DNA of 27,345 nt from a virus. A model generated the notes under the pieces. The model worked only from the letters and a program-made list of their open reading frames with translations. It was not told the origin of the DNA and made no database searches. Shown here in pieces: positions 1-16,719 of the stretch (position 1 is its first letter; the number at the start of each line of letters is the position of its first letter). The position numbers were made by a program, and so were the translations under genes. The stretch covers positions 1 through 27,345 of the IMG/VR virus record IMGVR_UViG_3300046542_000230, one strand, 5' to 3'.

Positions 1-2
1 AT

Positions 3-1367
3 GAAGGACAACCTGTTATTGCAATTCCTCGTAGATATCCATTACCTAAACTTCATAAATTCACTAATACTGGTGAAATGGTTAAAGAAGGTGGATACTC
101 TCCTGCAGCTACTAGAAAAATTAAATGTGCATTCAAACCTAAGAGTGATGAACAAGCTGGTATGCTAGATTTCCTTGAAGGAAAAGGTGCATACACTGAT
201 TTAGCTAAATCTCCTCGTCGTGGTTTGTTTGCTCGTACAGGTACTGGTAAAACATATCTGTCTATTAAATATATTGCTAATAGTGGATCATTTGCATTCA
301 TTAGTTGCCCTGATGAGAAAGCTATTCTTACATGGTCTCAAGAGATTGCTAAGTTTTCCGATATCAAGCCTGAAGAAATTGGCATTGTTAAAGGACGAGA
401 GTCTCTTGCTAAACTTATAAAGAACAGAAATAAGTACAAAATTATTCTTGGTTCTTCAAAGACTTTTGGTTCTCTTATCTATAGTAATGAACACCATCTA
501 ATCACTGATTTCTTTGAACAGATGGAATTTGGTTTAACTATTCATGACGAAGCACACTTGAATATTATTGTACTATTCTTCTTGGAAATGTGTACTAACA
601 CTCGTAGAACCTTTTATCTTACTGCTACACTTGGACGACGTATTTACAGAGAATCAAAGCTTCTTGAGATTTTGATGCCTGCAGATAATTGCTTGTATTT
701 CCAAAAGATTCTTCCTAAATATACTGTGCGTGTATGTAGATATCATACTAACCCAACTCTCCCTAATCATGTGAAAGGTCTTAATCGTCCTAAAGCATTT
801 GATTATCTTGCATATGGTAAAAAGTATCTGCTCAATCCAGAGCTTCCATATATGGCTGTATATCTTGATGAAGTAATGCGTAGAGTTATCCTAGCAGCTA
901 GGAAAGCTTTGACTAATCCTACACATAAGATAGCAATTGTTTGCAAGACAAAGCTAGAGAATGAACTTCTTGCTGGATATATTAAGAAAGCATTTCCTAC
1001 ATTAAGTCTAGGTGTCTTTAACTCTGATATCGAAGACATGGAAGCACGGTTTGCTGAAACAGATGCGCAGATTATTATTACTACCGATAAGAGCTTTGCT
1101 GGTATTATTAACGTATCTAAATTAGAAGCTATTGTATTTCTACATCCTACTACATCATCTGAGCATTTGCTACAGATTGTTGGTCGTATGCGTGATGATG
1201 TTCCCGGTAAGAAATATCTAGTATATATTCTGATTGATGGTTCATTTAAAAGATGTTTACGTTCAGGTGAGAATGCTCTTGAAGTTCTTGAGCAACACTC
1301 TATTGATATCAAACATATTACATTGAATGAGAAACGTACTATACAAGTTGATATTGATGACATTTAA
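3..1367 (+). CDS. SF2 DEAH-box helicase, UvsW-like, 5' end cut by window edge
   Basis: ATP-dependent DNA helicase or translocase of superfamily 2, of the kind phages use for branch migration and recombination-dependent replication (T4 UvsW is the model). The Walker A motif ARTGTGKTY is encoded around 231-257, the Walker B box DEAH at 546-557, motif III TATLGRR near 621-641, and the C-terminal RecA-like domain ends in motif VI QIVGRMR at 1173-1193. The frame is open to the left edge, with codons EGQPVIAIP before the first visible methionine at 78, so the true start lies upstream and ATG 78 is probably internal. Both RecA-like domains are complete. A terminator follows directly. The helicase assignment is firm; the UvsW label is by domain layout only. 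Confidence 0.88.
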   Translation, partial: EGQPVIAIPRRYPLPKLHKFTNTGEMVKEGGYSPAATRKIKCAFKPKSDEQAGMLDFLEGKGAYTDLAKSPRRGLFARTGTGKTYLSIKYIANSGSFAFISCPDEKAILTWSQEIAKFSDIKPEEIGIVKGRESLAKLIKNRNKYKIILGSSKTFGSLIYSNEHHLITDFFEQMEFGLTIHDEAHLNIIVLFFLEMCTNTRRTFYLTATLGRRIYRESKLLEILMPADNCLYFQKILPKYTVRVCRYHTNPTLPNHVKGLNRPKAFDYLAYGKKYLLNPELPYMAVYLDEVMRRVILAARKALTNPTHKIAIVCKTKLENELLAGYIKKAFPTLSLGVFNSDIEDMEARFAETDAQIIITTDKSFAGIINVSKLEAIVFLHPTTSSEHLLQIVGRMRDDVPGKKYLVYILIDGSFKRCLRSGENALEVLEQHSIDIKHITLNEKRTIQVDIDDI

Positions 1368-1373
1368 ATTACA

Positions 1374-1408
1374 ATGGATATAACCTTCGTGGTTATATCC
1401 ATATTTTT
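1374..1408 (+). terminator. Rho-independent terminator after helicase gene
   Basis: A perfect 12-bp stem, with ATGGATATAACC at 1374-1385 and GGTTATATCCAT at 1391-1402, closes a TTCGT loop and is followed by ATTTTTA. It lies 6 bases after the helicase stop and separates that gene from the operon that begins at 1469. Confidence 0.88.
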
Positions 1409-1437
1409 AAAAGGTCTTTGAAGCATTTAATATTAAT

Positions 1438-1454
1438 TTGAATTCAGAATTCAA
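1438..1454. promoter_or_regulatory. 17-bp palindrome upstream of the 1469-5884 operon
   Basis: TTGAATTC, a central A, then GAATTCAA: perfect 8-base arms in the short interval between the helicase terminator and the first gene of the next operon, 14 bases before its ATG. The position fits an operator or a small RNA hairpin over the weak ribosome site. No promoter boxes could be assigned with confidence. Confidence 0.4.
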
Positions 1455-1468
1455 TTAGTGGTACAAGA

Positions 1469-2122
1469 ATGAATATCAACTCCAGACTCATAAACTTTAA
1501 TACCATGTCTATTGGTCTTCTAGTTACCGATAACTCTGAAGCACCATTTCCAAAATTCTTTAACTATTATAAAGCTTCTGCTTATATGCAATATTCACCA
1601 TTCTTATCATTTGAATTTAAAAGTGATATAGATGGTAAAGTGAAAGTTGGTAAGAAAGCAGAAGGTGATATCTATGAGAATTGTACATTCTCCGTAATGG
1701 ATATGCGTAAGCTTAAAGATGCATTTCAAGAAGTAGATGATATTGTATCTTCTGATTATTATGCATGGGAAGATCATATTGATCGTGGTCAGATTCCTAG
1801 AGTTAAACCAGAATATAAAGAATACAAAGTAATTGTTACAAATTCATCGCAGAAAGGACAGATTGCTCTGTTGCTATGTTTTACATATAACAGAAAACAA
1901 GATATTTATACGCCGTGTGTAAAGATTCTTATCAACTCTGATGGATGTGCAATCAATGTTCCTATTGAACATTTTCTAGCAATATCATTATTCATTAAAG
2001 AAATGAATCTTCATAGTGCTGCAAGAGAAACTATTTCAGCATTTCTAACTAACCATCATCTACGCAAAGCAAATATTGCTGCATCTGCTAAGCAGGTAGA
2101 GATTGAAGAGGAAGAAACATAA
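1469..2122 (+). CDS. unrecognised 217-residue phage protein
   Basis: I do not recognise this protein. It looks like a soluble globular protein: no signal peptide or membrane segment is evident, the middle is rich in alternating hydrophobic strands, and the C-terminus ends in an acidic run (EIEEEET). It is the first gene after the helicase terminator and opens the operon running to 5884. The start ATG has only a weak purine stretch (CAAGA) directly ahead, so expression may be low or controlled by the palindrome at 1438-1454. Its stop TAA shares one base with the ATG of the next gene, implying translational coupling. No function is claimed. Confidence 0.75.
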   Translation: MNINSRLINFNTMSIGLLVTDNSEAPFPKFFNYYKASAYMQYSPFLSFEFKSDIDGKVKVGKKAEGDIYENCTFSVMDMRKLKDAFQEVDDIVSSDYYAWEDHIDRGQIPRVKPEYKEYKVIVTNSSQKGQIALLLCFTYNRKQDIYTPCVKILINSDGCAINVPIEHFLAISLFIKEMNLHSAARETISAFLTNHHLRKANIAASAKQVEIEEEET

Positions 2123-2736
2123 TGGCAATATCACCACACTTTCTTGGAGATTCTACTGAGATTCTAGCATTGATTCATGAATTTACTGTAGAGCTGAAAA
2201 CTCGCTCTATCTATGTAGATAGTGATAATCTGGTAGTTCAAGAATTAATCAATGAAACTTTTCTGCTAGCAGAGAATCTTCGTACACTTTTAAAGAAGAA
2301 TGTTTATTCATCTTCTGCTGTTGCGCAACAATTCTACGGTCAATTCACTTGTATTGAAACAAGAGATAATATCACAAGTATTATTACTGCTCTTATTGGT
2401 GATCTTGTAAGATTCCAGTCTCAATGGAGTTTTAGTTATAATACGTGGGCAAGCTCATACAGGTCTATTAAGAATAATAGAGATGTATTAGTTCGTGGTG
2501 AAGAACATATGCAATTTGAATTTCAAATTCTATTTCCTAACTATGATAAAATGTCACGTAGTATTAGTTATATTACTAGTCAAATTAAAAATGTAGCTGA
2601 TTTTCAGTTACCTAAAGTTTCAGATGTAGTAAAAGATAATTTAGATAATAATACTGCTTTTAAGCATCTTATGTATAAATTATTTGGTAAGAATCCAAAC
2701 CGTAAATACACCTTGTTCAATAAAGAAAGAGTCTAA
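2122..2736 (+). CDS. unrecognised 204-residue phage protein
   Basis: Unrecognised. The protein appears mostly helical, with several long amphipathic stretches (for example around LIHEFTVEL and LLAENLRTLLKK), and has a basic C-terminus (GKNPNRKYTLFNKERV). No catalytic or metal-binding motif is apparent. The start is set by TAATG overlap with the preceding gene and by GAGGAAG about 7 bases ahead, inside the upstream reading frame. It is part of a close-packed operon, so it is probably co-translated with both neighbours. Confidence 0.75.
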   Translation: MAISPHFLGDSTEILALIHEFTVELKTRSIYVDSDNLVVQELINETFLLAENLRTLLKKNVYSSSAVAQQFYGQFTCIETRDNITSIITALIGDLVRFQSQWSFSYNTWASSYRSIKNNRDVLVRGEEHMQFEFQILFPNYDKMSRSISYITSQIKNVADFQLPKVSDVVKDNLDNNTAFKHLMYKLFGKNPNRKYTLFNKERV

Positions 2737-2737
2737 T

Positions 2738-2917
2738 ATGTCTACTCCATTCATGGAAAGTCAAGCAATGCCATACTCAGTTCCTTCCAAGAAAGTAAAT
2801 GAAGAAACTGTTGAACCTCTAACAGATCGTGCTCGTAAGGCCCAAGAAGAACGTGCACGCTTTCTAAAAGAAAGTACTATTCCTGCACAAGATGGTTTCA
2901 TCAATCTAAGTGAGTAA
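2738..2917 (+). CDS. unrecognised small protein, 59 residues
   Basis: Short hydrophilic protein starting MSTPFMESQAMPY. The ATG at 2738 is preferred over an upstream in-frame ATG at 2684, because 2684 lies inside the preceding gene while 2738 follows that gene's stop by one base and has AAAGAAAGAG ahead of it. The middle (about residues 28-43, LTDRARKAQEERARFL) looks like a charged amphipathic helix. The rest is low in hydrophobic residues and may be disordered until bound to a partner. Function unknown. Confidence 0.65.
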   Translation: MSTPFMESQAMPYSVPSKKVNEETVEPLTDRARKAQEERARFLKESTIPAQDGFINLSE

Positions 2918-2922
2918 TATTT

Positions 2923-3696
2923 ATGGAACTTAAGTTATCAGTTGCAAATTGGGTACAGCCAACATTCAGACTTAAGCCTCCAGTAATTCCGCTACATCCT
3001 GGCAAGTTTATTGCTGCCAATATAGCTACAATTGGATTTGGTATAAAAACTCATAAAGATTTAGTTAACTTCATATCTGATCGACTATATCTAACAACTA
3101 CAGTTGGTGAGGATTTTCTACTTGGTAAATTCTCAATCCAAGAAAAACATATCGGATTGATAGATAGTATTCTTGGTAAAACTGGTCTAGAATGGCTAGA
3201 TATGCAAATTAAGTATGATGATTTTTGCTTACGTAGTAGCATAGCATCTGAAAAGAATTTGAAGATGCTGCAAGATTATGTAGATACTTGTAAAAAATAT
3301 GGTCTTTCATTAGATTATTCAACTCCAGTTTATAAAGGTCTAGGGCAACGTATGGTTGATAATGCACGTCGTATTCAACTTGGCGATAACGGTAAAGCTT
3401 TGCTACCAAAAGAAAAACCACAGCATATTATTCAAGGTACCATTATTGATCTTACTGCTGATAAGCCAGAACTACCTACTGTAATTAAATTTAGTAAATC
3501 AAATGATCCTGGACATCTAACACATATTCGAAAAGATCAATTTAATCCTGATGCACCTGATACTATTTTTCTATGTACCACAGATGAGAAAGAACCAGAT
3601 AAATCTGGTGTAGCATTAAAAGTTACAAATAGAAAAACTGTAGAACAACTCATTGCTGCACTTCAAATGACCATTGACCTAAAGTGGGTACGCTAA
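2923..3696 (+). CDS. unrecognised 257-residue phage protein
   Basis: Unrecognised soluble protein. The N-terminal part (KPPVIPLHPGKFIAANI) and following helices (about residues 30-110) resemble a folded domain. A stretch around GLGQRMVDNARRIQLGDNG is basic. The C-terminal third looks like alternating strands. No enzyme motif was found. The gene sits five bases after the 59-residue protein and one base before the next gene, so it belongs to the same transcription unit. No strong Shine-Dalgarno is visible at its start (AGTGAGTAATATTT), suggesting coupling to the gene before. Confidence 0.72.
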   Translation: MELKLSVANWVQPTFRLKPPVIPLHPGKFIAANIATIGFGIKTHKDLVNFISDRLYLTTTVGEDFLLGKFSIQEKHIGLIDSILGKTGLEWLDMQIKYDDFCLRSSIASEKNLKMLQDYVDTCKKYGLSLDYSTPVYKGLGQRMVDNARRIQLGDNGKALLPKEKPQHIIQGTIIDLTADKPELPTVIKFSKSNDPGHLTHIRKDQFNPDAPDTIFLCTTDEKEPDKSGVALKVTNRKTVEQLIAALQMTIDLKWVR

Positions 3697-3697
3697 A

Positions 3698-4390
3698 ATG
3701 ACAGTTATTGCCTTCAAACCAAAAGCACCAGTTATCGAAGTTACCAAAGATCTTGATGATGCATTTGTAAAGCTTCTCAATGAAAAGTTGGCAAACTACC
3801 ATACACGTCGTCTTCCTAACCCGAATTCATTTGTAGCTGAAATGGCTTCAGTTGTACAGTTCATTTCACTAGAACATGCAATTGAACAGCTTGTTATTTT
3901 CTGCAATACTGAGACAGAATCTAGCACATTCTCAGCTGATACATTTGATCCTATGAAGCCTGCACGTTATATCATTCCTGCAAGTCTTGCTAAGAAGATC
4001 GATGATCGCCTTGATCTGTCTGTGAATTGCATGTATAAATATTATCTTGGACAGGTAATTCCTAACTTCATTATTGAAGCATATCTGAAAGAAAATCATC
4101 TTCGTCGTAATGATATTGTATATGCCGCTGATGCTGATTATGTACAAGAAATTCTTTTTGATGCTGAAGGTAAACCTCGTACTATTGTACAGATGATGGA
4201 CTACTATGTAACTAAGTATAATACTGGTTGTGATGAAGAAGATTTTGCAGAATTGAAAGAATTCTTTGATGTTACTAATAATAGTTATGTACCTGACCTT
4301 GTTGAAATTGCATGTAATATGTATATTCCTCCTGCACTATTACTAGCTCATAATCTTCAAATGGAATATAATGGCTATAATTTGTCATAA
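3698..4390 (+). CDS. unrecognised 230-residue phage protein
   Basis: Unrecognised. Acidic, mainly helical soluble protein with a distinct central segment (SLAKKIDDRLDLSVNCMYKYYLGQVIPNFI) and a C-terminus rich in hydrophobic helix (PPALLLAHNLQMEYNGYNLS). A plausible helix-turn region near HLRRNDIVYAADADYVQEI is visible but not diagnostic. It is separated from the upstream gene by a single base and from the first gene of the six-paralog array by 12 bases that contain a strong AAAGGA. Confidence 0.72.
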   Translation: MTVIAFKPKAPVIEVTKDLDDAFVKLLNEKLANYHTRRLPNPNSFVAEMASVVQFISLEHAIEQLVIFCNTETESSTFSADTFDPMKPARYIIPASLAKKIDDRLDLSVNCMYKYYLGQVIPNFIIEAYLKENHLRRNDIVYAADADYVQEILFDAEGKPRTIVQMMDYYVTKYNTGCDEEDFAELKEFFDVTNNSYVPDLVEIACNMYIPPALLLAHNLQMEYNGYNLS

Positions 4391-4402
4391 AAAGGATTGC
4401 AA

Positions 4403-4651
4403 ATGCTTCCTACTCCTGAAATTGATGAGCTACCTAAATCTGTAATAATTAAAAATAGATATAGTAGAGAATACTGCTTTGTATTAGCACACATTGCAGA
4501 GATTTTTTCATTTGATGATACTGCTACTACTTTGTATATTACTCTTAATACTGGTAAAGAAAAACCTACTGAAATCGAATTTATTGACGCTAAGCGGCGT
4601 CGATATGTTCAAGATAGACTCTATAGACTTTTGGATGCTATCACATTATGA
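4403..4651 (+). CDS. tandem paralog array, member 1 (82 residues)
   Basis: First of six neighbouring genes that share length, an N-terminal M-[LI]-P start in most copies and a common pattern: a strand ending in an isoleucine, a turn, then T-L-x-[IL], a further strand ending in I-x-F, and a C-terminal basic helix. Here these are VLAHIAEI, TTLYITL, IEFI and KRRRYVQDRLYRLL. ATG 4403 is chosen over a TTG six bases upstream because AAAGGA at 4391-4396 is correctly spaced and the other copies begin M-[LI]-P. It is closest to member 2 (AHIAEI versus SHIASI; KRR in both). Function unknown; the fold would be a small beta-sheet plus helix. Confidence 0.8.
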   Translation: MLPTPEIDELPKSVIIKNRYSREYCFVLAHIAEIFSFDDTATTLYITLNTGKEKPTEIEFIDAKRRRYVQDRLYRLLDAITL

Positions 4652-4878
4652 TTCCAGAAAATCACTCTCCACCAGCAGTATCGTTTAAAGATATGGGTGA
4701 TAATGACTACACAGTCGTATTATCGCATATTGCTTCTATATCTCTCAGTACAGTTTATTCAAGTACGCTGTATATCAATATCTCTGGGAAAGATATGACA
4801 ATTAAGTTTTATAATAATAAACGTCGTGATGAAGTGTATGAGATTATTAAAAAACGACTAAACTCTGAAAATATCTAA
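4648..4878 (+). CDS. tandem paralog array, member 2 (76 residues)
   Basis: Starts inside the stop of member 1 (ATGA overlap), so translation is coupled. Matches the shared pattern with VLSHIASI, STLYINI, IKFYNNKRR and a final helix DEVYEIIKKRL. It pairs most closely with member 1, indicating a relatively recent duplication within the array. No cysteine, histidine cluster or catalytic motif is visible, which argues against an enzyme. Function unknown. Confidence 0.8.
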   Translation: MIPENHSPPAVSFKDMGDNDYTVVLSHIASISLSTVYSSTLYINISGKDMTIKFYNNKRRDEVYEIIKKRLNSENI

Positions 4879-4890
4879 TAGGTTACCTAA

Positions 4891-5151
4891 ATGCTACCAT
4901 TACCTACAGATGTACCAGTGAAACCTAAATTATTAGTATTTTTAGATGATACTGGTACTCATGTGAGTCATTGCTTGAGTGAAATTGGAGGCTGTTTAAT
5001 CTTACCAGATAGTCCAGAAGTGTTACGTATCCGTGTTAAAGGCGTTGTGGAGCTAAAAAGAATAAACTTTAGAACAAAGAAGGAATGTCAAGAAGCTAAA
5101 GCTTTTGTATATTCTTTCTTTGAAGTTGAAACTTTTCAAGGAATCGGCTGA
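4891..5151 (+). CDS. tandem paralog array, member 3 (86 residues)
   Basis: Begins MLPLPTDVP after an AGGTTACCTAA spacer. Shared elements are LSEIGGCLILPD, EVLRIRV, KRINF and a helix ending AFVYSFFEVETF. It is clearly closest to member 4, which has NGCFIYRDAP, SLRFYF and RFVQSFFKITTF at the same positions. Its stop codon overlaps the member 4 start (TGATG). Function unknown; the pairwise similarity to member 4 is what supports a real gene. Confidence 0.8.
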   Translation: MLPLPTDVPVKPKLLVFLDDTGTHVSHCLSEIGGCLILPDSPEVLRIRVKGVVELKRINFRTKKECQEAKAFVYSFFEVETFQGIG

Positions 5152-5399
5152 TGAGTTCTTCAGCAGAATTTTCAAAACCTGAAATGTTAACATTCTTTGA
5201 TAGAGACGGTGATGAAGTTAGTATTAAAGTAGATGCAATAAATGGTTGCTTTATCTATAGAGATGCTCCAGCATCTCTTAGATTTTATTTCACTGGTTCT
5301 AATGATTCTAAGACTCTGACATTTAAGTCAAGTCAAGAATGTGAGAAAGCACGTCGATTTGTACAATCTTTCTTTAAGATAACAACTTTCAGGCCTTAA
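5151..5399 (+). CDS. tandem paralog array, member 4 (82 residues)
   Basis: Overlaps the stop of member 3 by one base. It carries DRDGDEV near residue 17, then NGCFIYRDAP, SLRFYF, TLTF and CEKARRFVQSFF. The x-D-G-x-E/H-V turn before the second strand recurs in members 3, 5 and 6 (DDTGTHV, TADGIAL, DRNGVEI). This is the only copy that does not begin M-[LI]-P (MSSSAEF). Function unknown. Confidence 0.8.
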   Translation: MSSSAEFSKPEMLTFFDRDGDEVSIKVDAINGCFIYRDAPASLRFYFTGSNDSKTLTFKSSQECEKARRFVQSFFKITTFRP

Positions 5400-5402
5400 C
5401 TA

Positions 5403-5648
5403 ATGCTACCTAATCAAGAAACATCTATCTCCCTACCAAAAATGATTCGTCTTGTTACAGCAGATGGTATTGCACTTACTTATTTAGTTAGTACCATTTC
5501 TGGTATATTTGAAGATGCTAATGACACAACATTAAAACTTCGTCAACACAATGTTCCAGACCTTAGACATATTATATTTAAAAATAAAGCTGATCGTGAC
5601 AAGGCCGTAGCGCTATTATACACTTTCTTTGATGTTGTTACTCCGTGA
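5403..5648 (+). CDS. tandem paralog array, member 5 (81 residues)
   Basis: Begins MLPNQETS three bases after the member 4 stop. Shared elements are STISGIFEDAN, TTLKLR, HIIFKNK and DKAVALLYTFFDVV. It is intermediate between the member 3/4 pair and member 6. No good Shine-Dalgarno is visible, so reinitiation after member 4 is likely. Function unknown. Confidence 0.8.
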   Translation: MLPNQETSISLPKMIRLVTADGIALTYLVSTISGIFEDANDTTLKLRQHNVPDLRHIIFKNKADRDKAVALLYTFFDVVTP

Positions 5649-5656
5649 GAAATCAG

Positions 5657-5884
5657 ATGATTCCCAAACCAGCTAATAACCTTGCAGTTCGTGATAGAAA
5701 TGGTGTAGAGATCTTTGATCTAAATAGAATCATTAGTATCTTTACTTGTGATTCTACTAGAAAGATCACTATCTATTTTGAACATGGTCATAATCTAGTT
5801 CTGATTTATGAAAAGAAAGAAGAAATGCAAAAAATTCATGATATCTTAGTAACTGAAATGAATGCAAAGGTAATTGAATTATAA
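5657..5884 (+). CDS. tandem paralog array, member 6 (75 residues)
   Basis: ATG 5657 gives MIPKPANNLAV, matching the M-[LI]-P start of the other copies; a GTG at 5645 overlapping the member 5 stop would add four residues and cannot be excluded. Shared elements are VRDRNGVEI, RIISIFT, KITIYF and a C-terminal helix EEMQKIHDILVTEM. It is the most divergent copy and the last gene before the terminator at 5892, so it closes the operon. Function unknown. Confidence 0.75.
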   Translation: MIPKPANNLAVRDRNGVEIFDLNRIISIFTCDSTRKITIYFEHGHNLVLIYEKKEEMQKIHDILVTEMNAKVIEL

Positions 5885-5891
5885 TATTAGA

Positions 5892-5921
5892 AAGAGAGTG
5901 TAAAAACTCTCTTTTTTTTTT
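5892..5921 (+). terminator. Rho-independent terminator after paralog array
   Basis: AAGAGAGT at 5892-5899 pairs with ACTCTCTT at 5906-5913 over a 6-base loop and is followed directly by an uninterrupted T run to about 5921. It ends the 1469-5884 operon. Confidence 0.9.
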
Positions 5922-5944
5922 GTACTTTATACTATATCTTAAAC

Positions 5945-5966
5945 ACTTATATAGTACACACATATA
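5945..5966 (+). promoter_or_regulatory. candidate phage promoter motif
   Basis: ACTTATATAGTACACAC lies between the terminator at 5892 and the start at 5980. A similar stretch, ATCTATATAGTAGAAACAC, is found at 9147-9165 upstream of the gene at 9187, also just after a terminator. The shared core TATATAGTA and the equivalent positions suggest a phage-specific promoter. Two copies are thin support, and the window is AT-rich. Confidence 0.3.
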
Positions 5967-5979
5967 GGATTAAAACGCC

Positions 5980-7287
5980 ATGGGAAGAGTCTCAAGTGTT
6001 GTTCCTGTTAAAGATATAGTAGAGAATTCTATTCAATCTTTTGTAACAGATGCAACTACGGTTTACCCTAATTTTCTAGACACAGCACCTATTTTTGTAA
6101 CCTATTATAGTCGTGCTGCATATAAGTCAACACATGATGAATCATTTGAAGCTTTCAACGAAGTAGCTGGTTCTGAATCACCTAACAAGTTCTTCAAGAT
6201 TGAAGATCTACCTCTTTACTCATTAGATACTTCTGATTTTAGTACTGAAATGGGTGATCAAGGTTGGGCTGGTGAAGTTAGTTCTTCAGCTATTATATTA
6301 CCTGATACAGTCAATCCTAAGACTGACGATCTTATTGAGATTTCTTTCCATACAAAGAAATATCTATTTATCGTTACATCTGGTACTCCAGATAACTTCG
6401 GTAATAATAAATTCTATAAGATCAATATTCGTCTCAGCCAATATACCGCTGCTGAAGTAGATAGGCAGGTTGATGCTGAATACAAGATTGACTATGATCT
6501 TATTGGTAAGAAAGCAAATACGCTTGTTAAAAAGAATTATGCTGAAGCTCTAGTAGAATTACGTAGTGTCTACGATCAGCTGTTAAAAGCATATATGGAT
6601 CAATTCTATAATACAAGTGCTCAATGCTTTATTAATACAACTAATAATACTTTAGATCAATATCTAAACTATTTCTTAATGAAGAATGCACTCATAACGC
6701 CTTTTGTTAATTATCGTAATAGCTGCTTTATTTCACCTACTATTGATAAATATACTGATAAACGTAATTATCAGAACTCATTCTTAAAGGTCATTGAAGA
6801 CCTTAAATTTCCATTACTGCCTACAGATGTAACAGTCAATGTGATTAAGAGTAGTTTAGGGAAAAATCGCTATGAGTTTATGAATCTATTGCGAAATAAA
6901 TATCACTTTGCTGATTATGAGCTAGCTGATACCAATAGTGTTAACACTATAGTAGATATTATTGATCTAGCATTATTCAGTAAACCAAAATATCCTGAGA
7001 ATGTAGAAGATCATAAAGATGTCAATATTAGTTTCATCTATGAGTTTAGTAGATTTTTCTACAATCTAGATGAATTTGGCAAACTTTCTAATGGTATTAT
7101 GATTGACGAATTACTTACCATAAGTGGTAAAGAGCATTTTGAAAACATGCTTGAAAGTATTTCAAATATTGAAATTAGATATACATCATTAGCTGATAGT
7201 GCAAATACCCCCATTAATGACTATTACATTACGCCATTATTATTATTTGCTCTAAAACATCTTTTCTATTTAATATCAAAAACCTAA
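5980..7287 (+). CDS. probable virion structural protein, 435 residues
   Basis: No named family can be assigned with certainty. The protein begins MGRVSSVVPVKDIVENS and has an N-terminal half with alternating strands (about residues 35-150: APIFVTYYSRAAYKSTHD, then FKIEDLPLYSLD). The C-terminal two thirds is helical and rich in Asn, Tyr and Phe. This layout and the position ahead of the capsid gene suggest a neck, adaptor or other structural role; that is inference from context. The start is preceded by AGGATTAAAACGCC, an acceptable ribosome site. It opens a new transcription unit after a strong terminator. Confidence 0.75.
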   Translation: MGRVSSVVPVKDIVENSIQSFVTDATTVYPNFLDTAPIFVTYYSRAAYKSTHDESFEAFNEVAGSESPNKFFKIEDLPLYSLDTSDFSTEMGDQGWAGEVSSSAIILPDTVNPKTDDLIEISFHTKKYLFIVTSGTPDNFGNNKFYKINIRLSQYTAAEVDRQVDAEYKIDYDLIGKKANTLVKKNYAEALVELRSVYDQLLKAYMDQFYNTSAQCFINTTNNTLDQYLNYFLMKNALITPFVNYRNSCFISPTIDKYTDKRNYQNSFLKVIEDLKFPLLPTDVTVNVIKSSLGKNRYEFMNLLRNKYHFADYELADTNSVNTIVDIIDLALFSKPKYPENVEDHKDVNISFIYEFSRFFYNLDEFGKLSNGIMIDELLTISGKEHFENMLESISNIEIRYTSLADSANTPINDYYITPLLLFALKHLFYLISKT

Positions 7288-7823: not shown

Positions 7824-8438
7824 ATGTCTGACGTAACTAATTTTGTATACGTAACTATCAAGTCTACTGGTCGTATTCCATTCTTGAATCGTAGTGGTCC
7901 TGTATCACGCCCTATCTCAATTGCGAAAGCAGTGTATGATACTCTCAAATCTTTAGGTTATGAGATGACTGTACATGAGAAAGAAAATGTATCTGTTGAC
8001 AGTGTTACTGGCGTTCGCGTTGCTATTACTGCTGACAATTTTGTACCTCATACTGAAGGTACTTACATTGATGTGGACACTACTGAGCCTTCACCTGCAC
8101 TAGTTCCTCCTACTATGAATGAAGTAACTGTTGATGAGCCTAAACAGCTTGATGGCATTCCTGAACCAGAAGTAGAAGAAACTGATGTTGATGGCACTGA
8201 AGAAGATACCGAAGAAGAAGGCGAAGAATCTGTAGAAGACGCAGATACTGACCCTGAAGCTGGTATTGATGTCTATGACATGGAAGTCTATAAGACTTAC
8301 ACCAAAGCACAGTTAGTGACTTACCTACGTAAAGCCGAAGAATATTTATCTGACGAAGCAATTGCAGAATTGCCTTCAGCTAACAAAGTTCGTCTACTAG
8401 AAATCGTAGAAAAAGAAATCGTTAACGCTGCTGAATAA
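7824..8438 (+). CDS. acidic-linker protein, 204 residues
   Basis: Unrecognised three-part protein. Residues 1 to about 75 form a folded domain (FVYVTIKSTGRIPFLNR, then SIAKAVYDTLKSLGYEMTV). Residues about 90-150 are an acidic, Pro- and Glu-rich linker (VEETDVDGTEEDTEEEGEE). The C-terminal 50 residues are helical (YTKAQLVTYLRKAEEYL and VRLLEIVEKEIV) and resemble a small helical docking domain. Starts after AGAGGACTTTTT. It ends at a strong terminator together with the acidic protein before it, so the two form a pair. Role unknown; a structural or scaffold function is inferred only from context. Confidence 0.72.
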   Translation: MSDVTNFVYVTIKSTGRIPFLNRSGPVSRPISIAKAVYDTLKSLGYEMTVHEKENVSVDSVTGVRVAITADNFVPHTEGTYIDVDTTEPSPALVPPTMNEVTVDEPKQLDGIPEPEVEETDVDGTEEDTEEEGEESVEDADTDPEAGIDVYDMEVYKTYTKAQLVTYLRKAEEYLSDEAIAELPSANKVRLLEIVEKEIVNAAE

Positions 8439-9908: not shown

Positions 9909-11471
9909 ATGTCAATCGATTATGGTTCAAAAACTCACGGTCGCGCAAGCTACCAGTCAGGCGCTCTAGACAACTTTAAAAGTCTAGTAGAATCCTTCGA
10001 ACAAGACGGTGTGTCTGTTCTAAGTGAAGGCGTCCAAGACGTTCTTAATAACCGTGTATCATTCGCTGAATACACTGAAAAGCTATTAGAAGGCGTTGAA
10101 GAATCAGAAGTTGAGACTATGACTCAGCTTATTGAAAACACCCGTCTAACTATGCTTTCAGAAAGCATGATGTCCGGTTCTAACCCTATCTCTGCTCTTT
10201 CCCTCCCAATGCTACGTATTGGCTGGCCGAAAATTGCAGTACGTGAAGGTCTACCTACTGAGCCTGTTGAACAACCTAAGTTCAAAGTTACCACTCATCG
10301 CCAATACATCCGTATGCCTGATGGTACCAAGCGTTTCCTACCTGAAGCCCTAGTAGGTCCAGGCGCTGTTGAATTTGGTCTACCTAAACTAAAAGAGACT
10401 TCTATTGCTGCCACTTCTGGCTCAATCGCTGCTCACGATCTTCTAGCTGAAATCGGTAAAAATACTGAACTAGGCGACGAAATCGATCCACGTTTCTCCG
10501 TCGTTGAAGTGGTTGCTGTATTCGTTACCAACCCTGAAACCTTCGCTGTTAACTTTGAACTAGATACCAACATCAACGTTGCTACTGGTCAAATTAAAGG
10601 CGCTAACGGTGCTTTCGCTACTGTTATGGTTAAAGTCAACCGTGAAACTGGTCTAATGGACGCTGTTATTATCGGTGCTGAACTGAAATCTGTTAAGATC
10701 GTAGGTTTTGTAACCTCAGAAGCTAACAACTCAGCTACTCAAGTTGGTTTCGATATCGACGCTGTTGAATGTGTAATCGGTACTGCACAGCCAATTGAAG
10801 CTCCTATCAACATCCAACACATGACTGACCTGATGCACATGTATCAGATCGATGCTACCCTAAGTAACATCGAAATCATGTCTACTGCTCTAGCTCACTT
10901 CACCGACAAAGAAGGTGTAAACTTCATTGATTCTACTTATCAGCGTGATGCTGTTCAGAAGATTCAAGAAACCTTCGACGTAGCTCCTCCTTCGAACTAC
11001 GCTCTAGGTGATGCTGAATGGCGTGAACAGATCAAACTAAAACTTGATCGTATCGTTACTCGCCTACAAACTGGTGCAAACATCTACTCCGGTCACGCAG
11101 TAGTATTCTGTCACCCACTAGACGCTCAGATTATCTCTAACGTCAAATGGGCTTACAGCGCTTCTGAACAAGTAAACGACGTTGCTGTCGACTATAAAGT
11201 TGGTAACTATACCTCTGGTATCACCAGCTACATGGTTCTTCAATCTCCTTACTTCTCACAGGGTAAAATGCGTATTGTTTATGTTCCTGCTGATGCACAA
11301 CATAAATCACTCGTTTACTACCCTTACAGCTTCTCCACTATCCGTGGTTCAGCTTCAAGCTCAGCTAACGCTGTAAACGTTCCTGCTATTCAGATGATCA
11401 AACGTCACCTGTTCAAAGCGTTTACTCCGCTAGTCGCTATGCTAAATATCACCGGTAACGGTGTTAGCTAA
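9909..11471 (+). CDS. major capsid protein, 520 residues
   Basis: Forms the icosahedral head shell; HK97-fold capsid protein of the T4 gp23-like class. The N-terminal 75 residues are acidic and helical (NFKSLVESFEQDG, TEKLLEGVEESEVE) and may be a propeptide removed during maturation. They are followed by a segment typical of this family (NPISALSLPMLRIGWPKI, then EPVEQPKFKV). The rest is long strand-rich sequence ending TPLVAMLNITGNGVS. Codon choice is strongly biased (leucine mostly CTA, many -C third positions), as in highly expressed genes. Ribosome site GGAAAGGA is very strong. It is a single-gene transcription unit with its own terminator. A prohead protease gene is not in this window. 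Confidence 0.9.
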   Translation: MSIDYGSKTHGRASYQSGALDNFKSLVESFEQDGVSVLSEGVQDVLNNRVSFAEYTEKLLEGVEESEVETMTQLIENTRLTMLSESMMSGSNPISALSLPMLRIGWPKIAVREGLPTEPVEQPKFKVTTHRQYIRMPDGTKRFLPEALVGPGAVEFGLPKLKETSIAATSGSIAAHDLLAEIGKNTELGDEIDPRFSVVEVVAVFVTNPETFAVNFELDTNINVATGQIKGANGAFATVMVKVNRETGLMDAVIIGAELKSVKIVGFVTSEANNSATQVGFDIDAVECVIGTAQPIEAPINIQHMTDLMHMYQIDATLSNIEIMSTALAHFTDKEGVNFIDSTYQRDAVQKIQETFDVAPPSNYALGDAEWREQIKLKLDRIVTRLQTGANIYSGHAVVFCHPLDAQIISNVKWAYSASEQVNDVAVDYKVGNYTSGITSYMVLQSPYFSQGKMRIVYVPADAQHKSLVYYPYSFSTIRGSASSSANAVNVPAIQMIKRHLFKAFTPLVAMLNITGNGVS

Positions 11472-11480
11472 GTAAATCAA

Positions 11481-11516
11481 TCCCATATCCCTCACAAGGG
11501 GATATGGGGTTTTTAT
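11481..11516 (+). terminator. Rho-independent terminator after capsid gene
   Basis: TCCCATATCCC at 11481-11491 pairs with GGGATATGGG at 11499-11508, followed by G and TTTTTATTT. The stem sequence is repeated almost exactly after the tail tube gene at 21777. Confidence 0.92.
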
Positions 11517-11662
11517 TTGCTTTTTTGAAAACCGTAACTGAAATCATTATACTGATATATAATTACTTTGATATTGTAATAATAAAACTATAAATATCAT
11601 CCATTAGGTGTTGCCAACACACTAAAATCAAAAAACTCAACTGCAAGAAAAAGGATTGTTGT

Positions 11663-12094
11663 ATGCCTCAAAACTCCAAGAAAGCTTCACTATCCCCGCT
11701 AGGAATGTCAATGAAACATCTAGTGAATTCTAAGACCGGAATCTTAGATCTAGAGATTGACACAAAAAATATTTTTGCACAAACATTCAAGAAAGTAATT
11801 TTGGGTGGTGCAAAAGACTACAAAATCGATGTTACAATAAAAAAGAAAAACATCGAGCGGCTCGGGGGATTAGGATTTATTGCAGATACCAGTATTAAAG
11901 ATGGTACTGTAATAAAAAGTAAGCTATTGGAGATGGTAACCTTGCGTGATAGACGGTTACTAGAAGACCTAGAAACACATGCGGTCAATGCAAAAGTAAC
12001 AGAGAAGTCACTATCGGCATCGCTTAAACACTTATATAGCGATCCATATACAAATGAGAGTTCTAAATTAAATTTATTCCTTTCGTTTGATTAA
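11663..12094 (+). CDS. unrecognised 143-residue basic protein
   Basis: Unrecognised. Begins MPQNSKKASLSPLGMSMKHL after a strong AAAAAGGA site. Basic, with a likely strand-rich middle (KVILGGAKDYKIDVTIKKK) and helical second half (LRDRRLLEDLETHAVNAKV). No enzyme or metal motif is evident. The gene is flanked by the capsid leader-terminator block upstream and its own terminator at 12118, so it is expressed as a single gene or from a nearby promoter in the 190-base AT-rich gap upstream, where GTGTTGCCAACAC forms a small inverted repeat. Probably a minor structural or tail-associated protein, by neighbourhood only. Confidence 0.72.
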   Translation: MPQNSKKASLSPLGMSMKHLVNSKTGILDLEIDTKNIFAQTFKKVILGGAKDYKIDVTIKKKNIERLGGLGFIADTSIKDGTVIKSKLLEMVTLRDRRLLEDLETHAVNAKVTEKSLSASLKHLYSDPYTNESSKLNLFLSFD

Positions 12095-12852: not shown

Positions 12853-13500
12853 ATGAGTACTCAAACTGAAATAGCTGCTACAGGAGAAAAGTATACTACG
12901 CATTTGAAAACACAGAATATGTCTTTCCTAAAGATGTATAGGTATTTACGAGATCGTGGTATTAAAAACAATAAGTTCTTTCTCCGCTTATATGATGAAT
13001 CCCTAGCTACTGTAAACCCACACAGTGCTAGACTTACTCCTGTACAGAAGACTAAGATTCTTGCAGAAATTACAAAGAATCCATATTACTATTTGCGTGA
13101 AATCGTTAAGATTCCTATTCCGGGTGGTTTAGCAAGCTTTGAACTACATCCAGGAAATTTAGCAATTACATGGGCTCTTATTAATAACTTAGACCAAATT
13201 GCATTACTACCGCGTCAGCGTTATAAGACAGTATCTATTGCTGCTACGCTTACTTGGGTATATGACTTCGGTACTAAAAACACCCACATGCTGTTTGGTA
13301 ATAAATCACTAGGCGACTCCAAGAACAACTTACGACGGTTCAAAGAGATTCGTGAGAACATCCCACAATTCTTAAGAGAAACCATTAATACTCCTGGCCT
13401 GGACGTAGATAACATGGAATCTGTTAAGAGTGAGAAAACTCGTAACAAGATTGATACTGTTGGTCAGCCTACAAACGAAGATGCTGCCGACAAACAGGGT
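12853..13500 (+). CDS. terminase large subunit, exon 1 (residues 1-216)
   Basis: N-terminal part of the DNA-packaging motor ATPase, which with the portal drives DNA into the prohead. The adenine and Walker A region reads LLPRQRYKT, residues 118-126 (about 13204-13230). The Gln-containing P-loop is typical of terminases (T4 gp17 has SRQLGKT), but the usual Gly before Lys is Tyr here. The exon ends ADKQG at 13500. Without splicing, the frame continues only nine codons to a stop at 13528, so the ATPase would be cut just before Walker B. AAAGAGG precedes ATG 12853. Splice boundary evidence is given under the intron. Confidence 0.9.
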
Positions 13501-13713
13501 TATTGCATGGCTCTGTATAAATACCTTTAAATGCTGGGACGCCCCTTGAATATGGGTAATCAGCAGTATAGACAAAACCGTATCTGTTGCATAAATGTTG
13601 ATATATAATTCTTGTGAACTCATATAGATAATACTGTGTGAACGTACTATTCTGTGGATTTTTACTATGATCCGTCTAGAATACTATAACCCTACCATAC
13701 CAAGGATTGTATA

Positions 13714-15075
13714 ATGACTACTTCTAAAACTGTAAAAGCAACTGAAGCTCAAGTTAAAGTTGCAAAAGAATTTGATGTAAAAGCGCATACTCATGCGTTT
13801 GGGGAAGCTCTGAATAATGCACTTACTAGTGTATTCAAATCAGATGCAAAGGATGTAATCTATGTAGACGGTGAGTTGAAGAAACTCTCTGCTATTGGTT
13901 ACCACGTTGTAAATCAACCTAATATTTACAATGCTGACCGACTGGTTGCAAAAGCAAAGTCGATAGTAGCTGAATTGGTAGAGCATCAAGCTCTGACAGT
14001 TCATGGGGAAGATGCTGTAAATGTGGTTGTTGGTAAGTTCACTGCTTTTGCTTCTAACATTACTAATGCTGTAAACCAAGAGGAACCTGCAATGACTACC
14101 ACTACCACCGCTAAGCCCGTTACTAAATCTACCACTGCTAAAGCTGCAGTTAAACCTGTTCAACCAAAGAAAGTTGAACGTGCTGAAAAGCCTGTTGTAA
14201 AAGCAGCGGCTAAAGCAACTGCTCCGATTGTTGAAGAAAAAGTAGTAACTGATTCTTTGAAAGAACAGCTGGACCTTTTGACTCCTGCACAACGTGCTGA
14301 ATTTGATGCAATGATTGCAGAGGCTACTGCTACTATGCAGACGCCTGAACAGCGTGTACTGTTCGAATCGATGATTAATAATATGCTCATTACTCTGCTA
14401 GGGAACGCTACCATGACCAATACCGCTACCGCTGCTACCGCTCAAACTGTTGCTGCTGAAGAAGTTGTAGATGTTAAATCTACTCCGAACCGGGATGCAA
14501 TCATTGCAGACTTGTTCAAGCAAGCTACCAAGTTCTTCGAACGTCTGGAACTGGCTACCATTGGTAGTTCTACCAAGATCAAGAGTAAAGCTCTTGGTAT
14601 CAACTCGGAGAAGAATGAATACATTCCATCTCCTGAACTGTTGATGGCTGCTGTCGTTGAAAACCCTGTAGAACTCGGTACAGTAATGTACAAGATCTAC
14701 AGCGTTGTACATGACAAAAAGTTGGGCAAGACTGTACGTCGTGTTCTGGAAATCACTGCTGGTGATACCAACTACGAAGTATTCGACAAGAAGGCTGTAA
14801 AGCTCGCAAAGCGCTTATTGGTTGCTGAGACTGCTGAAACTCGTGAAGAGATTGTGAAGAACAGTAACGAGTCTAAAGCTCTTAAAGTAACCATCATGAA
14901 ACCAGTGTATCGTACTGTTGATGATATTCTGGATGCTGGTAAAACCCTGATCAAAGCTGGTTTCAAGGGTATTACCACTCTTCCTAAGAAAACAGTGCGT
15001 CAAGAAATGCGTACCATTAACAACAACTACAAGAATGCCAACGGCGGCTTCTTCAAAGTGTTGACCACCTGGTAA
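13714..15075 (+). CDS. intron-encoded protein of unknown function, 453 residues
   Basis: Lies wholly inside the P6 loop of the intron. Strong ribosome site AAGGA at 13702. Residues 1-125 form an apparent domain (VKAHTHAFGEALNNAL; IYVDGELKKLSAIGYHV). Residues about 126-185 are an Ala/Lys/Thr/Pro linker. Residues about 188-230 contain a helical repeat (LTPAQRAEFDAMI and TPEQRVLFESMI). Residues about 255-453 are a C-terminal domain ending GKTLIKAGFKGITTLPKKTV and KNANGGFFKVL. I find no LAGLIDADG, GIY-YIG, HNH, His-Cys box or PD-(D/E)XK pattern, so a homing endonuclease is not evident. Leucine codons are mainly CTG and TTG with CTA once by eye, unlike neighbouring genes, which suggests separate ancestry. 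Function unknown. Confidence 0.85.
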   Translation: MTTSKTVKATEAQVKVAKEFDVKAHTHAFGEALNNALTSVFKSDAKDVIYVDGELKKLSAIGYHVVNQPNIYNADRLVAKAKSIVAELVEHQALTVHGEDAVNVVVGKFTAFASNITNAVNQEEPAMTTTTTAKPVTKSTTAKAAVKPVQPKKVERAEKPVVKAAAKATAPIVEEKVVTDSLKEQLDLLTPAQRAEFDAMIAEATATMQTPEQRVLFESMINNMLITLLGNATMTNTATAATAQTVAAEEVVDVKSTPNRDAIIADLFKQATKFFERLELATIGSSTKIKSKALGINSEKNEYIPSPELLMAAVVENPVELGTVMYKIYSVVHDKKLGKTVRRVLEITAGDTNYEVFDKKAVKLAKRLLVAETAETREEIVKNSNESKALKVTIMKPVYRTVDDILDAGKTLIKAGFKGITTLPKKTVRQEMRTINNNYKNANGGFFKVLTTW

Positions 15076-15149: not shown

Positions 15150-15318
15150 TCTATATTCAACGACTATCGAAAAGAGTGTGGAAACACATTAACTTAGTAG
15201 AGTACACTCAAGTGAGTGGAAACTTGGTACATAGAAAAATCTATGAAGATATAGTCTGCTCTGCATAGTAATATGCAGCCCCATGGACATGAATTAACGA
15301 CTCATGTTAAACATAACG

Positions 15319-16719
15319 CGTGGTATGTCTATTCCATTTTATTGGCCTGATGAATTTGCATTCATTAAATTCAATGGAACTATTTATAAATCTGCAGCAC
15401 CTGCAATCAGTAAGGTATCTGAAATTGCTGAGAGTCATGGTCGTCCTCATGGGAAGATCTTCTCTACTACTCCAGCTAACGTTGATACCGAGAATGGTGC
15501 ATTTGCTAAGAATCTAATTGATAATGCATGTCCATTCTTAGAAGAAATGTATGATTGGCCTAGAGACAGGATTAAGCAATTCGTAACTGCTAACTCTGCT
15601 AACGACTTCTTATACATTCGATATACATGGCAAATGCTCGGCTTATCTAAAGAATGGTATGATAAACAATGTCGAGAATTGCTATTTGACTGGCTTACTA
15701 TTCGACGTGAAGTAGACTTAAATTGGACTAAGTCTTCTGATAACTCTGTCTTTAAAGAAGATGAACTTGATAAGTTAAACAAGTTTACCATCATGAACAC
15801 TACTCCTTTAATGGTTGAAGTGAAGAAAGAGAATCCAGAGACAAATGAAATTGTCAAGATGCCTTATGCATTTGTACAACTTAAGCCTATTGATAAAAAT
15901 AAAGTCTACTTTATAGGATGCGACGTTGCTGGTGGTTTAGGTAAAGACTCCTCTACTATTATTGTAACTGATCCACATAATAACTTTAGAGAAGTTGCTA
16001 CTTTCAAAAGTAACACTATCAACATTACTAACTTTACACTATTACTAATTGAATTCATTCTTACATATTGCCCTAAATCAATTATGTTCATTGAAAACAA
16101 CAACTATGGTAAAGGTGTAATTGATAACCTATTAGAACATCCTAGACTTTCTAAGCAAATCTACTATGAATATAAGATTGCAGATAAAGACAAAACAAAA
16201 TCTAATCCTAGTACTGTAACTGAGACTATTGTATATGGTATCAATACTAATACTGCGTCTCGTAGTCTAATGATTGACATTGCAATGGAACTAGTTAGAG
16301 AGACACCGGAATTTATTGTATCTGAAGCTGTGTACCAAGATATTAAAGGTTTAATCTTTACTAAGTCTGGTAAAGTAGAACATGATACTACTGCGCACGA
16401 TGACTCCTTATTTGGTCTCTTAATGATTCACTATGCAGTTAGATATGGTAATAACATTGGGCGATTCTTAAGAGACGCATCAGCTGTTAAGAAAAATATT
16501 GCGCGTGTTAATGCTCTAGCTACAAATGGAGTATTCAATAAAGTTATTGATGATCCAGCGCAAAATAAAGGCATTCAAGTGAATCTCAATGACATTGCTA
16601 GACTTCTAGAATCCGGCGAGTCACTTGCAGATGTCATGCGTCATGTACAAGATTTTGCTGCTAATAAAAAAGCTAAACCTATTAATAATAACTTAATGTC
16701 ACAACTTTTTAAAAGGTAA
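15319..16719 (+). CDS. terminase large subunit, exon 2 (residues 217-682)
   Basis: Completes the packaging motor. The exon opens RGMSIPFYWPDEFAFI, with the Walker B aspartate and catalytic glutamate as residues 227-228, then SAAPA and the coupling motif FSTTPAN. The C-terminal RNase H-fold nuclease has its acidic residues at D418 (IGCDVAGG), E475 (FIENNNYG) and D577-578 (AHDDSLFG), all present. The spliced protein of 682 residues is a normal size for large phages. A stop at 15295-15297 in this frame and no ribosome site before ATG 15304 argue against separate translation, so splicing is needed. The RG at the junction lines up with the RG of T4 gp17 before its Walker B. Confidence 0.92.
   Translation, partial: RGMSIPFYWPDEFAFIKFNGTIYKSAAPAISKVSEIAESHGRPHGKIFSTTPANVDTENGAFAKNLIDNACPFLEEMYDWPRDRIKQFVTANSANDFLYIRYTWQMLGLSKEWYDKQCRELLFDWLTIRREVDLNWTKSSDNSVFKEDELDKLNKFTIMNTTPLMVEVKKENPETNEIVKMPYAFVQLKPIDKNKVYFIGCDVAGGLGKDSSTIIVTDPHNNFREVATFKSNTINITNFTLLLIEFILTYCPKSIMFIENNNYGKGVIDNLLEHPRLSKQIYYEYKIADKDKTKSNPSTVTETIVYGINTNTASRSLMIDIAMELVRETPEFIVSEAVYQDIKGLIFTKSGKVEHDTTAHDDSLFGLLMIHYAVRYGNNIGRFLRDASAVKKNIARVNALATNGVFNKVIDDPAQNKGIQVNLNDIARLLESGESLADVMRHVQDFAANKKAKPINNNLMSQLFKR

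Follow-up and report, generated by a model that had tools for sequence, protein, structure and literature searches.

A lineage-specific tandem array of six small phage genes with a predicted PH-like fold

The window, by which we mean the whole 27,345-nt stretch of viral DNA analyzed here (an IMG/VR virus record), carries six consecutive small genes at positions 4403 to 5884 that form a real, old, and lineage-specific array built on a known fold. Our preferred reading, to which we assign a probability of about 0.45, is that the array is an accessory cassette encoding small, adaptor-like, PH-like binders that have diverged toward different partners and are not part of the virion. All features placed below between positions 1374 and 7287 of the window lie on the plus strand.

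The six genes and their common ancestry

As the preliminary description had it, the six open reading frames (ORFs) encode proteins of 75 to 86 amino acids (aa) and are packed head to tail. Members 1 (4403 to 4651; 82 aa, MLPTP...) and 2 (4648 to 4878; 76 aa, MIPEN...) form one clade, and members 3 (4891 to 5151; 86 aa, MLPLP...), 4 (5151 to 5399; 82 aa, MSSSA...), and 5 (5403 to 5648; 81 aa, MLPNQ...) form another; member 6 (5657 to 5884; 75 aa, MIPKP...) is the most diverged and has an alternative GTG start at 5645. The M-[LI]-P start proved to be peculiar to the array: it opens five of the six members and none of the 25 remaining window proteins (hypergeometric, 3.5e-5). Two further features of the initial account held in part. 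The start of one gene overlaps the stop of the preceding one at 1/2 (ATGA) and 3/4 (TGATG), but gaps of 12 and 3 nt separate member 2 from member 3 and member 4 from member 5, and an overlap of members 5 and 6 depends on translation starting from the GTG at 5645. The D-G turn ascribed to members 3 to 6 occurs literally in members 4 and 5 only; the shared element is a G-containing turn that links strand 1 to strand 2. Judging from this gene arrangement, neighboring members are probably made jointly through coupled translation.

The wider proposal, that the six are a single diverged paralog family, is supported, for members 1 to 5 by both blastp and hhalign profile comparison with shuffles. Among window proteins, blastp linked member 1 to member 2 (E = 2e-6) and members 3, 4, and 5 to each other (E = 8e-19, 1e-8, and 3e-5). 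The profile of members 3 to 5 matched that of members 1 and 2 at E = 2.7e-5, with a score of 30.5 compared to 18.0 for the best shuffle; none of 200 shuffles equaled it. Member 6 matched the profile of members 1 to 5 at E = 0.0012, with a low probability of 19% and again no equal among 200 shuffles, and it outscored, though weakly, all nonmember window proteins against that profile. The closest pairs were indeed 1/2 and 3/4, with member 5 grouping with the latter, and between-group identities were only 12 to 25%.

Identity at codon positions 1, 2, and 3 was 0.47 to 0.50, 0.59 to 0.60, and 0.42 to 0.44 for pairs 1-2 and 3-4, compared to 0.28, 0.28, and 0.34 for random pairing. These values show that synonymous sites are near saturation and the duplications old, and that the array proteins, with second positions conserved, are under purifying selection and truly coding. 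On these comparisons, members 1 to 5 are homologous, old protein-coding duplicates of one ancestral gene, while the relationship of member 6 is supported by its borderline profile match together with an independently predicted model that has the topology of member 3.

No seventh copy was found in the window, where the six-member profile gave exactly six matches. By eye, the C-terminal ∼80 residues of the product of an upstream gene (2923 to 3696) resemble the array domain in having a T-I-F-L strand and a helix at the end; they were suspected of being a seventh copy, but profile comparison gave no support.

Predicted fold and known relatives

The AlphaFold2 model of member 3, built on the six-row paralog alignment (pLDDT 89), has five strands (residues 14-18, 24-28, 32-36, 44-49, and 56-59), with a short helical turn between the second and third, and a C-terminal helix (63-74). 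Member 6, which was modeled from its single sequence so that nothing could be borrowed from its paralogs (pLDDT 79), shows the same order of elements: strands 8-13 and 16-21, a short turn, strands 25-31, 36-41, and 46-50, and helix 54-70. The M-[LI]-P tails are of low confidence in both models. Structure prediction had been suggested as a check on kinship, in which unrelated folds or assignments to different families would count against it; the two members share one predicted fold.

Structure searches with both models returned PH, PTB, FERM, and related domains, as well as yeast TFIIH Tfb1 for member 6. The predicted model of member 6 aligned with the Avo1 PH domain over 70 of 75 residues (Z = 8.8, root mean square deviation 2.2 Å), and that of member 3 reached Z scores of up to 6.4 to PH-like domains; Z scores of such size may mirror a common arrangement, yet nearly all listed rows belong to one superfold. 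Foldseek E values were weak, the best for member 3 being 0.003 (PDB). Pfam scores for the PH clan agree with these matches but fall short of the curated cutoffs: 18.4 bits compared to 23.6 for GRAM (member 2, E = 0.002) and 14.7 compared to 27 for SIN1_PH. Weak PHROG matches differed for each member and were therefore not used.

Similarity to the PH-like superfold thus extends over most of the chain in the predicted models of members 3 and 6. A PH domain proper is a seven-stranded barrel with the C-terminal helix as a cap. We rejected that name in favor of "PH-like" because five strands are predicted rather than seven and because the Pfam scores lie under their cutoffs. What the array proteins share with members of the superfold (PH, GRAM, PTB, FERM F3, and Avo1/Sin1 PH) is the predicted strand order and the C-terminal helix; they differ in being free-standing at 75 to 86 aa. 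They are best read as stand-alone minimal PH-like domains, although a shared fold by itself shows no function.

Matches among viral predicted structures were small, uncharacterized phage proteins, some of them annotated as flagellar or swarming proteins (FlbD-like), and the top 50 viral matches of member 3 and of member 6 overlap by about a dozen entries, which are small phage proteins or proteins without a name. These predicted structures suggest that very distant relatives of the array exist as single small phage genes. FlbD/SwrD-type proteins, which in phages carry the label "flagellar and swarming motility protein," resemble the array in small size and in several of the viral structure matches; in contrast, the array genes stand six in tandem, and their products carry M-[LI]-P tails. 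The FlbD family itself (PF06289) was undetected in the window, with no match to the members in a Pfam scan at E values up to 10 (positive controls were detected).

Searches for closer relatives gave tblastn chance matches only in phage records (members 1 and 3), no match in IMG/VR by pattern scans (member 3, the 3-5 alignment, and the 1-2 alignment), and none in GTDB contigs with a pattern from the 3-5 alignment; being pattern or BLAST based, they would let very distant relatives escape. The alignment of all six members was too poorly conserved along its length to supply such a pattern. The array profile gave weak or no matches in phiR1-37, AR9, AH12, BpSp, LPJP1, and two IMG/VR relatives. In the whole 249-kb and 262-kb relatives, the array profile had no match. 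A literature search bore out the statement that no such phage system had been described: no tandem six-member set was found, while small PH-like or FlbD-like phage proteins are common among the predicted structures searched.

Two gene runs bear a more general likeness. Genes 37 to 60 of SPO1, a host takeover module (PMC6873191), may be analogous in that small accessory phage genes are tightly clustered there in operons, but the array members are paralogs on one fold. Genes g001 to g044 of phiR1-37, the closest sequenced relative (L021, 103 to 11446), are 44 consecutive, mostly overlapping small genes, mostly of 60 to 120 aa, many of which start M-K-[IV] or M-R-[IV]. They lie in a different genome region, and blastp shows no clear paralogy among them; we dropped them as array relatives because blastp shows no relation.

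Genomic setting and possible roles

Its major head protein and gene order place the window in an uncultured jumbo phage from the group of AR9 and phiR1-37. The major head protein (9909 to 11471) shares 55% identity with its counterpart in Yersinia phage phiR1-37 and about 33% with the one in AR9, and the gene order (helicase, head-tail joining/structural protein, DNA-binding protein, head protein) is that of phiR1-37 g121...g135. Only three relatives on this branch were found in IMG/VR, namely, phiR1-37, a 249-kb contig (L015), and a 45-kb contig (L017); a scan of GTDB contigs for the major head protein gave no match.

The array closes an operon that begins after a terminator (1374 to 1402) with orthologs of phiR1-37 g122 (1469 to 2122), g126 (2122 to 2736), and g127 (2738 to 2917; 59 aa; hhalign E = 4e-4 to g127 and 1e-3 to the L017 copy). 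Two orphan genes of 257 aa (2923 to 3696) and 230 aa (3698 to 4390), for which a search found no relatives, and the six array genes follow as an insert of ∼3 kb lying exactly between the g127 and g128 orthologs. An intrinsic terminator (5889 to 5916) ends the operon; it is followed by a late-promoter-type motif, AACA-N6-TAG (5942 to 5954), 26 nt upstream of the g128 ortholog (5980 to 7287), a member of a virion structural/head-tail joining family. The g127/g128 junction in phiR1-37, L015, and L017 holds a terminator and a promoter only, without the array. Elsewhere within the corresponding operon, phiR1-37 has g123 to g125, and L015 has a 124-aa ORF between its g126-like and g127-like genes; taken with the insert found here, this means that the operon's cargo changes among relatives. 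Since the insertion spot holds different or no extra genes in relatives, the array looks accessory rather than a core virus part.

AACA-N6-TAG is absent from positions 1 to 5941 of the window. Early (virion RNA polymerase) promoter sites, ATATATTAT, precede the operon copies in phiR1-37 and L017; the operon in the window has no exact early motif and only a degenerate site (1425 to 1440) with two mismatches, 29 nt from the start at 1469, of a kind for which chance matches are common. Sigma-70-like promoter matches in the window showed no excess over chance and were set aside. In the phiR1-37 record, g122 to g127 carry no structural note, whereas such notes stand at g128 to g131 and g133 to g134, and the major head protein is g135; these notes belong to another phage, whose g122 to g127 may simply have been missed in the virion. 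Lineage specificity, a variable-cargo operon, and the lack of a late-promoter motif favor an accessory, probably nonvirion role, which is compatible with host targets.

PH-like domains generally bind proteins, peptides, or lipids. For a free-standing copy that has no catalytic partner, the best reading is a role as adaptor or blocker; for a lineage-specific cassette of six such copies, old and diverged, it is a set of binders whose partners differ. We propose that one small PH-like gene underwent an old tandem expansion to six, each product consisting of five strands and a C-terminal helix behind a flexible N-terminal tail beginning M-[LI]-P, and that the array, together with the two orphans, forms lineage-specific accessory cargo at the 3' end of the operon. 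The PH-like surface of each member would bind one protein or peptide, so that duplication and then divergence would have yielded six adaptors with different partners; the conserved tail may act as a docking motif common to the members, or it may be just a conserved start region. For a probably accessory and nonlate cassette of this kind, the likeliest partners would be host proteins encountered in takeover or defense, as with SPO1-type takeover modules (PMC6873191).

As the main rival reading, the six paralogs could instead be subunits of one mixed assembly, such as a ring or heterodimers 1/2, 3/4, and 5/6, which we regard as possible but doubtful. Mixed assemblies occur in other old tandem paralog sets, and several features fit one here: member lengths are similar, translation of 1/2 and 3/4 (and of 5/6 from the GTG at 5645) would be coupled, all six genes were retained despite near-saturated divergence, and the M-[LI]-P tail is conserved outside the folded part. 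Indeed, a fixed number of six and a conserved N-terminal motif would also be expected of an obligate hetero-oligomer. However, at the low identity between groups, a common interface is not visible, and a lineage-specific cassette would be an unusual home for a core machine. The narrower version, in which one defined hetero-oligomer of PH-like subunits serves as a phage-made binding hub restricted to this lineage, is unlikely.

Because the next gene and the block after it are virion genes, the members might be minor virion proteins decorating the head, neck, or tail; the terminator and late-type promoter that stand between array and block, and the missing structural notes for the operon's orthologs in phiR1-37, make this improbable. 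The members might also regulate machinery that belongs to the phage itself, for instance by binding phage RNA polymerases or the neighboring helicase. This would agree with the Tfb1 match of member 6 and with the peptide or protein binding that PH-like domains perform in transcription complexes, but the array is absent from relatives of the same group, and we consider such a role quite improbable. Small ORFs are readily overcalled, and the six might have been spurious, noncoding, or unrelated look-alikes; homology, shuffle controls, the codon-position pattern, and concordant predicted folds refute this, leaving it a negligible probability.

Phages hold very many small proteins without an assigned function. 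Under the accessory-binder reading, six tandem binders with one fold and saturated synonymous sites are a compact natural experiment in phage binder diversification, with each member small enough for expression and pulldown. If the members hit different host targets, the array would indicate which host processes this phage group has to deal with.

Promoter motifs across the phage group

The late-promoter consensus of AR9 is AACA-(6N)-TA/G, whereas the transcriptome study of phiR1-37 yielded no late consensus (PMC5312081); AACA-N6-TAG, which fits the AR9 consensus, is thus a candidate late-promoter motif. It recurs about 20 to 120 nt upstream of genes, on the coding strand, across the phiR1-37 group: at 5942, 7292, 8574, 9144, 9839, 12027, and 19099 in the window; at 7960, 9329, 12190, and 12954 in L002; at 2928 and 8180 in L015; at 2959 and 8203 in L017; and at 11504, 13766, 36869, and other positions in L021. 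There are no minus-strand matches in L002, L015, L017, or the window. Of the 10 matches in 50 kb of phiR1-37, 8 lie 22 to 63 nt before annotated starts, yet intergenic sequence makes up only 4% of those 50 kb.

Two sites of the early type, ATATATAAT-N6-G, occur further along the window. One, at 11555, lies just past the major head gene and 93 nt before an orphan gene at 11663. The other, at 13601, lies within the large terminase locus, where the terminase is split into two ORFs (12853 to 13530 and 15304 to 16719) separated by an ORF of 453 aa (13714 to 15075) that has no clear family; the motif is 98 nt before this ORF, which might represent an early gene that was inserted or is carried by an intron.
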